A DNA stretch of 34,243 bases from NCBI GenBank assembly GCA_017461225.1, contig JAFTYV010000004.1:1-34243 (forward strand). The letters are read 5' to 3'. Every line of letters begins with the position of its first letter. Within the stretch, counting starts at the first letter, position 1. This DNA comes from Candidatus Methanomethylophilaceae archaeon. GTDB lineage: Archaea; Thermoplasmatota; Thermoplasmata; Methanomassiliicoccales; Methanomethylophilaceae. A program made the translations under genes and the position numbers. The notes under the pieces were generated by a model, which saw only the letters and a list, made by a program, of their open reading frames with translations, made no database searches and was not told the origin of the DNA. Positions 1,984 to 29,285 of this stretch are shown in pieces.

Positions 1984-3327
1984 ATGAAGCAGTCTAACAT
2001 CGGATTGGCGGCCGTCGCTACGGTCGCGATCGCGGTCGTGCTCCTGTTCTCCTGGTCGGTCCAGGACGAGCCCCCGTCGGCGGAGGGTTTCGTCACCTGT
2101 CTCGATTCCGGGGACTACGAGGGCGCGTACCGCATGCTCAGCGGACCCGCCCGCGAGGCCATCGGATCCCCCGAGGCGCTCGGGGCGGACTACACGGCCA
2201 CGGTCTCCGCGTTGGAGGCGGCCCTCGGACCGTATGCCGGACTCACGGACGTGACGGGGACGGTCCCGTACCAGGGCGGTGACATGGACTACGTCGTCGC
2301 CGCGTTCGCGTACTCCGGAGTGATGATGGCCGTGGCGACGGACGGCGACGGGATGGTGCAGGGTCTCACGACCATCGCATGCGACCTCCCGTCGGAGGCC
2401 GACGTCCCGGAGGATGTCACCGAGGTCCCCGTGGAGGTGGTGACCGGTGACAGGATGCCGCTCCGCGGGATGCTCTCGTACGGCGACGTGTCCGACCGCA
2501 GGGTCGCTGTGGTCCTGGTCCCCGGGTCCGGGTCCCACGGCATGAACTGCGCCATCGGCGGCAACCAGATCTTCCAGCAGATCGCATGGGGACTCAACTC
2601 CCACGGTGTGGACGTCCTCAGGTACGACCAGAGGACCTACACCGACCCGTTCGGCGTGGACCTCGGTACGGCACCGTTCGACATCGGTTACGAGGTCGTC
2701 GACGATGCGATCTCCGCGGGGAGGCTCCTCAGGGACATGGGCTACGAGCGCGTGTACCTCGTCGGCCACAGCCAGGGTGCGATGATGGCACCCTCGATCA
2801 TGGCGGAGTCGGACGGCGTCTTCGACGGGCTCGTCTCCATGGCGGGGTCCCCCAGGGACATCTCCCAGATCCAGTACGACCAGAACATGGACCTCATCTC
2901 ACAGGTCCCGCCGGGACCCGAGAGGGACATCATGCAGCAGATGGTGGACGCGGAGTACGCGAAGTACCTCGGCATACGCGACATCCCGGAGTCGGAGATC
3001 CACTCCGTGCAGGTGTTCGGACTCCCCGCGTACTACGTCCTGTCCATGATGGACAGGGACAATGCTGGCGCCGCACTGGCGTCCGACCTCCCCATGCTGT
3101 TCATCTAGGGCACCGCCGACTTCCAGGTGGACCCCGAGGACGACTACGGGGCGTGGACGGACCTCCTCGACGGGAAGGGGAACGTGTCATTCCAGCTGTA
3201 CCTCGGACTGAACCACATGTTCTGCATCTCCGGGGGACCGGGTGCGGGCACCACGGCGGAGTACTACGGCGAGATGACCGTGAACCCCACCGTGATAGAC
3301 GACATCGCCGGGTTCGTCCTGGGTTGA
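1984..3327 (+). CDS. secreted or membrane-anchored alpha/beta hydrolase with in-frame UAG (probable pyrrolysine)
   Basis: Reading through one TAG gives a 447-residue protein. Residues 5-22 are a hydrophobic signal or anchor; residues about 29-120 resemble the DUF3887-type N-terminal domain found on some alpha/beta hydrolases; the rest is a serine hydrolase with nucleophile elbow GHSQG (Ser263). Codon 375 is TAG, inside LFI-X-GTADFQVD, where homologues normally carry Gln or a similar residue. The likely acid (Asp379 in GTAD) and base (His411 in LNHMF) both lie after it, so a protein ending at UAG would have only one triad residue. The reading frame stays open and conserved for 72 codons after TAG, to a TGA. 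Amber decoding as pyrrolysine is known in Methanomassiliicoccales; the alternative is a recent CAG-to-TAG nonsense mutation or a sequencing error. Substrate unknown, probably an ester outside the membrane. Confidence 0.82.
3106..3108 (+). other. in-frame amber codon (candidate pyrrolysine)
   Basis: TAG at codon 375 of the hydrolase. It is the only in-frame TAG I found in a conserved coding region, while all intact genes in the window end in TGA. Confidence 0.65.
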
Positions 3328-27158: not shown

Positions 27159-27175
27159 TTGGATTATATATCCAA
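27159..27175 (+). promoter_or_regulatory. operator/promoter of the nitrogenase-like operon
   Basis: Perfect dyad TTGGAT-TATAT-ATCCAA. Its centre is the box A, 27-28 bp before ATG 27195, so a bound protein would block TBP directly; the arrangement implies repression. Confidence 0.8.
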
Positions 27176-27194
27176 CTACATACAGCTCCCCATC

Positions 27195-29285
27195 ATGTTC
27201 AAGATATCGGTCTACGGGAAGGGGGGCATCGGCAAATCGACTGTCTCCGCGAACCTTTCCCACGCGCTGTCCGCGGGGGGAGCCAGGGTTCTGCATGTCG
27301 GATGCGATCCCAAGCACGATTCCACGCGTCTCCTCACGGACGGTGTGCCGGTCGCGACCTTCGCGGAATCCGGTCCGGACGCGCTGGTGGACACGGGCTG
27401 CGGTGTGTCCTGTGTGGAGTGCGGCGGGGCACCCGTCGGCACGGGATGTGCCGGCAGGGGCATGGCGATGCTGTTCGAGAGCATCTCCGACGTGGATGCC
27501 GACTACAGGGTGTGCGACGTCCTCGGGGACGTGGTCTGCGGCGGCTTCTCCATCCCCCTGAGGGAGGACAACGTCGACGCCGTCGTCCTGGTGACATCCG
27601 GGGAGTTCATGTCGCTCTACGCCTGCAACAACATCCTCCGCGGGATCAGTAACCTCAACGGGAGGGACTGTGTCCTCGGCATAGTCATGAACCGCCGCGG
27701 GGACATCGGAGAGGAGCTGAGGGTCCGCAGGTTCGCGGAGGCCGTGGGACTCCCGGTCGTGTGCGACATACCCCGCAGCGACAGGTTCCGCGAGGCGGAG
27801 GCCAGGGGCTCCACGCTGGTCTCCCTTTTCCCCGATTCGGAGGAGGCCGCCGCCATCGGCGACCTGGTACGTGCGGTGACGTCCGACCCCGTGCTGCACC
27901 CCGCCTCCCCGCTGTCCGATGATGCCATGACCGACCTTGCCGCCGGGAGGCCGGTGCGCGATGGGTGCCGCGACGTCTCCCGGAGCCGCGGATGCAGCTT
28001 CGAGATGTACGACCACGACCGCGGGATGACCTACTCCGGCTCCTATGTGATGCCGTCCTGCACGTCGCACGGTGCGGTGGAGGCCGGTCTGAGGGTGCCC
28101 GATGCGGCGGTGGTCCTGCACGGTCCCCGCAACTGCGCATACCTCATGGAGTACGCGTTCCGCCGCAGGATGCTGCAGGAGCACGGCCAGAGACCGGGGC
28201 CGCTGCCGTCCTGCAACCTGTACAGCACCGGCATCGATGGCGGGACCCTGTTCCGCGGGGATGCGGAAGCGGTCTCCGAAGCGGTGTCACGTGCGGTCTC
28301 CGACGGTTTCCGCACGGTGTTCCTGGTCCACAGCTGTGCGACCGAGATAGCCGCGACGGACCTCGCGGGGATCGCCGCATCGCTCTCCGATGAGCTCGGT
28401 GCCGACGTGGTCGCGATCGAGCCGGACGCCAACTTCCTGGGCAGCAGGTTCGGGGGGCTGTCCGGTATGATGGACAGATTGGTCTCCTACATGGACCCGG
28501 ACGTCCCCGTCGAGCCTGGCACCGTCAACCTGGTGTCGCGCTGGTTCCACGGGTTCGGGAGGGAGAGGAACAGGAGGGAGCTGGACCTGATCCTGGGTTC
28601 GATGGGGATGAGGCTCAACACGATGTTCCTGGACCACTGCACCATCCCGGAGATATCCCGTTTCTGCGCGGGGGAGGTGGACGTGCAGGTCGGGGCTTCC
28701 CGCATCAACGGGCAGGTCTGCGACACGATCTCCGAGCGCACCGGGAGGCCGCGGGCACTGGTCCTCGATCCTCCCGTGGGCCTGTCCCAGTCCCTGGCAT
28801 GGGTGGACGCGGTGTGCGGACGCACCGGCCGCGACCCCGCCTCCGCACGGGAACTGCTCCGGAGGAGGTACCTCGACGGCATCTCGCCTCTGAGGGAACG
28901 CGTGCGGGGCAGGAGGGCGATGGTCTACTGCTACTCCCACACGGACGTGCAGTGGCAGCTGGAGGTCCTGCGCGACCTGGGTGTCGAGGTGGTGAAGGTG
29001 GTGTTCGTCAAGGGAAACGTCGTGGACGCCGCGGAGGCGGTTCCGGCATACGATGGATTGGATGTGGAATGGGACGGATCGTACTGCGGCTTCCTGGAGG
29101 ACTACAGGCGGTTGGGACCGGACATAGTGGTGGCGAACGACCACAACAGAATCGCCCGTTCCGGGGCGAGGTGGTGCTCGATGAACCCCACGGTGTTCGG
29201 TATCGGCGGCGCCGTGGAGTGGGCCCGCAGGCTCTGCGACAGCATGGACCTCCCCACGGGACTCGGATGGAAGGTGGGACTGTGA
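27195..29285 (+). CDS. nitrogenase-like fusion: NifH-like reductase joined to NifD-like catalytic subunit
   Basis: 696 residues. Residues 1 to about 240 are a NifH/BchL/CfbC-type iron protein: P-loop GKGGIGKST (8-16), GCDPKHDST (36-44), and the two [4Fe-4S] ligands Cys85 (GTGCAGRG) and Cys115 (VVCGGF). Residues about 270-696 are a NifD-like subunit with the three cluster Cys at 289 (MPSCTSHG), 314 (LHGPRNCAY) and 381 (VHSCATEIAATD). Electron donor and acceptor are therefore in one chain, which is unusual because the donor normally docks and leaves. The next gene is NifK-like. There is no NifE/N/B nearby and no reason to expect N2 fixation. Nearest functional analogies are CfbCD (F430) and chlorophyllide reductases acting on tetrapyrroles; CbiK next door supports such a substrate. 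The ATG at 27195 is set by the operator-TATA 27 bp upstream. Confidence 0.88.
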   Translation: MFKISVYGKGGIGKSTVSANLSHALSAGGARVLHVGCDPKHDSTRLLTDGVPVATFAESGPDALVDTGCGVSCVECGGAPVGTGCAGRGMAMLFESISDVDADYRVCDVLGDVVCGGFSIPLREDNVDAVVLVTSGEFMSLYACNNILRGISNLNGRDCVLGIVMNRRGDIGEELRVRRFAEAVGLPVVCDIPRSDRFREAEARGSTLVSLFPDSEEAAAIGDLVRAVTSDPVLHPASPLSDDAMTDLAAGRPVRDGCRDVSRSRGCSFEMYDHDRGMTYSGSYVMPSCTSHGAVEAGLRVPDAAVVLHGPRNCAYLMEYAFRRRMLQEHGQRPGPLPSCNLYSTGIDGGTLFRGDAEAVSEAVSRAVSDGFRTVFLVHSCATEIAATDLAGIAASLSDELGADVVAIEPDANFLGSRFGGLSGMMDRLVSYMDPDVPVEPGTVNLVSRWFHGFGRERNRRELDLILGSMGMRLNTMFLDHCTIPEISRFCAGEVDVQVGASRINGQVCDTISERTGRPRALVLDPPVGLSQSLAWVDAVCGRTGRDPASARELLRRRYLDGISPLRERVRGRRAMVYCYSHTDVQWQLEVLRDLGVEVVKVVFVKGNVVDAAEAVPAYDGLDVEWDGSYCGFLEDYRRLGPDIVVANDHNRIARSGARWCSMNPTVFGIGGAVEWARRLCDSMDLPTGLGWKVGL

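Follow-up and report, generated by a model that had tools for sequence, protein, structure and literature searches.

The reading frame at 1984-3327 raises a simple question: is the TAG inside it a stop codon, or is it read as pyrrolysine (Pyl) in a full-length enzyme? The frame lies on the plus strand of a stretch of 34,243 nucleotides from a Candidatus Methanomethylophilaceae archaeon (the window), which belongs to a 1.52-Mb draft genome of a gut-type methanogen, 97% complete, in 64 contigs. Translation gives 374 residues up to a TAG at 3106-3108, followed by 72 codons and a TGA at 3325-3327. The preliminary description had placed the TAG at codon 375 of a frame open for 72 more codons, with the catalytic Ser263 before it and Asp379 and His411 after it. 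Both statements were borne out by the translation, and the three catalytic residues are invariant in all 17 sequences of our alignment. The features of the gene are as follows.

1984-3327, plus strand: EstD-like alpha/beta-hydrolase gene, 447 residues when TAG is read, ending with TGA
2770-2772, plus strand: codon of Ser263, the nucleophile of the GHSQG motif (translation, alignment)
3106-3108, plus strand: in-frame TAG, codon 375 (translation), which is CAG (Gln) in 16/16 homologues of the order
3109-3324, plus strand: C-terminal segment of 72 codons, whose conservation equals or exceeds that of the rest of the protein (alignment, AlphaFold2 model)
3118-3120, plus strand: codon of the catalytic Asp379, 3' of the TAG (translation, alignments)
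3214-3216, plus strand: codon of the catalytic His411, 3' of the TAG (translation, alignments)

Elsewhere in the window, inspection by eye found a 708-residue frame (27159-29285, plus strand) in which a NifH-like part is joined to a nitrogenase-component-like part; a second nitrogenase-component-like gene follows and reaches 30565. The fusion is unusual and is perhaps of a putative type for cofactor F430 biosynthesis.

The esterase and the segment behind the TAG

With the TAG read, the protein exceeds the Pfam cut-offs of Hydrolase_4 (PF12146) and Abhydrolase_6 (PF12697). These matches, the modelled fold and the invariant Ser-Asp-His triad assign it to the alpha/beta-hydrolase superfamily, with a predicted esterase activity. 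Its residues 12-445 match the NCBIfam profile of EstD (NF041096) with an E-value of 2.5e-54 and 185 bits. Since this score is below the equivalog cut-off of 600, the protein is named EstD-like only. It resembles EstD of Thermotoga maritima (Levisson et al. 2007, as cited in PMC5171882) in the whole-length profile match and in the retained triad residues, and it differs in the score, which stays far under the cut-off. A phmmer search with the esterase found no relative in the PDB, and the structural neighbours of its model there include cinnamoyl and feruloyl esterases. The hydrolase is predicted to be secreted from a single feature, its hydrophobic N-terminus.

In the AlphaFold2 model (pLDDT 86, pTM 0.83), residue 375 sits in the strand formed by residues 371-376. 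The segment after the TAG completes this strand and supplies the one that follows, together with the final helices of the fold. A product of 374 residues would thus lack all of these elements, as well as Asp379 and His411 of the catalytic triad.

A search of 147 genomes of the order (E 1e-10) finds homologues in 16 of them. The 16 homologous sequences come from 15 other genomes and from one paralogue in the same genome, and all their frames are open. The 72 codons after the TAG align over the full length with every one of them and end at the same C-terminus. Between the esterase and its nearest homologue, identity is 76% after the TAG versus 53% before it; the corresponding GC3 values are 0.92 and 0.91. 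The segment therefore shows no decay.

All 16 homologues carry CAG (Gln) at site 375, and TAG was found there in one genome only among the homologues compared. No relative turned up when GTDB contigs were scanned with a single protein. An alignment-based scan of GTDB contigs yielded 80 wider homologues, of which 75 can be aligned. Among these, site 375 is Gln in 45, Asn in 20, Tyr in 4, His in 3, and Asp, Trp or Gly in one each, while Ser263, Gly376, Asp379, Gln381 and His411 are near-invariant. This variation indicates that the site is not catalytic and that large residues occur there. The preliminary description was thus correct that the site is often Gln, one base from TAG. Its suggestion of a near-neutral replacement is plausible; the site varies, to Tyr and Trp among others, only in distant homologues, and close relatives keep Gln without exception. 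Given this invariance in the nearest 16 homologues, a bulky replacement at 375 might harm the enzyme.

The pyrrolysine system and the use of TAG

A check for pyl genes found a complete set. pylS, pylB, pylC and pylD score over the curated cut-offs (TIGR02367, TIGR03910, TIGR03909 and TIGR03911) and are clustered on one contig, C45. An intact pylT of 70 nt lies in this cluster (L011:14768-14699), with a CTA anticodon (CUA in the RNA). It was recognised by eye, folds as a cloverleaf and is present in a single copy according to a pattern search; ARAGORN and Rfam did not report this tRNA-Pyl. Two mtmB genes, on contigs C5 and C45, each contain one in-frame TAG. There is one copy of the release factor aRF1, canonical and with the NIKS and YxCxxxF motifs kept, so that UAG may still be subject to termination in competition with reading.

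Stop codons were counted in a sample of 627 kb, 41% of the genome, for confident gene calls (score over 100). Short TAG-ended ORFs are mostly antisense or spurious and were excluded. The 346 confident calls end with TGA in 316 cases, TAA in 22 and TAG in 8. Six of these eight are in-frame sense codons, one belongs to a spurious call with no Pfam match, and one ends pylB. A true TAG stop is therefore found in about one of 340 confident genes of the sample (about 0.3%), in pylB only. Samples from two further species of the genus likewise contain few TAG stops, at 2 of 99 and 0 of 101 confident genes.

In six genes, the frame is uninterrupted only with TAG as a sense codon: the two mtmB genes, the esterase and the following three.

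L057:16156-18024, on contig C4: GatE, subunit E of Glu-tRNA(Gln) amidotransferase, with TAG at codon 565
L043:10889-13351, on contig C1: UvrA-like protein with an in-frame TAG, profile match of 659 bits over residues 126-814
L057:48-1652, on contig C4: IS1634-family transposase with an in-frame TAG in its DDE domain, profile match of 198 bits over residues 57-511

The GatE profile NF003107 spans the TAG (783 bits, residues 4-620), and the GatB_Yqey domain crosses it as well. In 29/29 other GatE sequences from the genus, the site is GAG or GAA (Glu). Archaea make Gln-tRNA by a route that includes GatE, and the gene is presumably essential; in a living cell its TAG must therefore be read, provided that the assembly is correct. 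In the UvrA-like protein, the TAG stands where 21/21 relatives have TGG (Trp), and the same gene in two other species of the genus carries TAG at different positions. An apparent TGA inside the frames of UvrA-like relatives was rejected, as the flagged TGAs are terminal stops.

As read-through controls we used 15 genes ended by TGA or TAA behind which the frame goes on in a coding-like manner. In none of the 12 controls with Pfam matches, which are separate neighbouring genes, does a domain span the stop; the other three of the 15 have no Pfam match. Taken together, the scarcity of TAG as a stop, the genes with in-frame TAG and the unbridged controls indicate that TAG very probably serves as a sense codon throughout this genome and is read as pyrrolysine. 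The other in-frame TAG genes, one of them essential by expectation, support the earlier suggestion that UAG encodes pyrrolysine here. The ancestral codons at the TAG sites differ (Gln CAG, Glu GAG, Trp TGG), and each is one base from TAG. Three different ancestral amino acids point to sporadic, tolerated mutations. In an archaeal 'Pyl code', reportedly described in a 2025 Science study, every TAG codon stands for pyrrolysine.

The one true TAG stop deserves a separate remark. pylB (L011:12786-13841, minus strand, equivalent to G000:C45:24785-25840) ends with TAG, and the start of pylC lies close behind. The TAG stop of pylB is shared by eight genomes of the genus, this one and seven others (L063-L066, L075, L078 and L079). 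These seven have the pylB genes most similar to the one here, and TGA ends all other pylB genes of the genus with a readable stop. It is possible that read-through at high pyrrolysine lengthens PylB and lowers the start-up of pylC, a putative feedback switch.

Reading of codon 375 and the alternatives

The presence of a complete pyrrolysine system in a genome that hardly uses TAG as a stop makes it likely that codon 375 is read with tRNA-Pyl. A C-to-T change would have turned the ancestral CAG of the EstD-like esterase into TAG. The ribosome would then insert pyrrolysine and produce the full-length enzyme of 447 residues, with the new residue adjoining the loop of the catalytic Asp. UAG would be decoded by tRNA-Pyl wherever it is present, without a special signal, and GatE, the UvrA-like protein and the transposase would have gained their TAGs independently and in parallel. 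RNA folding 3' of the esterase TAG shows nothing unusual (z = -0.03), and we know of no special RNA structure that is required for the reading of UAG. We infer that tRNA-Pyl is the reader, that the full-length protein is made and that it retains enzyme activity. The TAG is thus most likely a tolerated, near-neutral replacement of Gln by pyrrolysine through a general sense codon, with no dedicated catalytic use. A gain of function at 375, in which a reactive imine beside the catalytic acid alters the substrate choice or makes activity dependent on the Pyl supply, seems highly improbable.

If a nonsense mutation had occurred recently, translation would end at residue 374 and the esterase would be a young pseudogene. 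The TAG at an invariant Gln in one genome only would fit such an event, as would a normal-looking aRF1 and an esterase that appears dispensable from its rarity in the order. However, the genome has the pyl system, TAG is otherwise almost absent as a stop, and the essential GatE has a like pattern, where truncation would cut the end of the GatB_Yqey domain. The intact segment after the TAG also argues against it, though a very recent event would still be compatible. We consider this explanation unlikely. A sequencing or assembly error, with CAG as the true codon, is somewhat less likely still. The genome is a metagenome-type draft in many contigs, and a single base separates TAG from the CAG of all relatives. 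In the sample, however, four separate genes other than methyltransferase genes have an in-frame TAG, and the controls have no clear in-frame TGA or TAA lesion. Errors would not favour TAG. Neither a base-call error nor a recent nonsense mutation accounts well for the TAG pattern across the genome. There is hardly any likelihood that a suppressor or near-cognate tRNA inserts a standard amino acid in place of pyrrolysine. The ancestral residue is Gln and the CAG-reading tRNA-Gln is near-cognate to UAG, which would suit such an insertion; yet a dedicated UAG-reading tRNA-Pyl and its synthetase are present, the ancestral residues at the TAG sites vary between Gln, Glu and Trp, and in the sampled 41% of the genome no CTA-anticodon tRNA was found besides pylT.

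The preferred reading, a tolerated replacement by pyrrolysine, has precedents. In 'Ca. Methanomethylophilus alvus', Borrel et al. (2014) predicted 16 proteins with Pyl in addition to the methyltransferases (PMC4153887, Table 7). The expectation of the preliminary description that pyrrolysine is used outside methylamine methyltransferases is therefore supported here, but such use is not new in the order, and the esterase adds to a kind of Pyl protein already predicted. A comparison with that list shows that the order is shared, that the parts on either side of the TAG match one and the same homologue in a single frame, which is the criterion of Borrel et al. (2014), and that homologues without TAG carry an ordinary residue at the site. 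TAG stops are rare in both genomes, 1.6% in M. alvus (PMC4153887) and about 0.3% in our sample. None of the 16 proteins is described as such an esterase or hydrolase, as GatE or as UvrA. Beyond the list, the ancestral codons were established here site by site, and the affected genes include GatE, which is presumably essential. The same authors argued that an in-frame TAG in a background of few TAG stops is a stable mutation and proposed a dependence on the Pyl cassette (PMC4153887).

Pyrrolysine in the tRNA-His guanylyltransferase of Methanosarcina was attributed to neutral evolution (Heinemann et al. 2009, as cited in PMC4153887). According to that citation, this too is a Pyl protein outside the methylamine methyltransferases; its pyrrolysine has experimental support, while that of the esterase is predicted from the genome. 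The methylamine methyltransferases MtmB, MtbB and MttB share the in-frame TAG, in this very genome in both mtmB genes, but their pyrrolysine is conserved and catalytic, whereas the TAG of the esterase replaces a conserved Gln.

These results support the view that TAG is a general sense codon in gut Methanomassiliicoccales, where ordinary genes including GatE have an unbroken frame only if TAG is a sense codon. Such enzymes will be truncated by gene callers for which TAG means stop. The in-frame TAG in GatE would make the pyrrolysine system essential for the formation of Gln-tRNA, a direct addiction of the cell to its expanded code.
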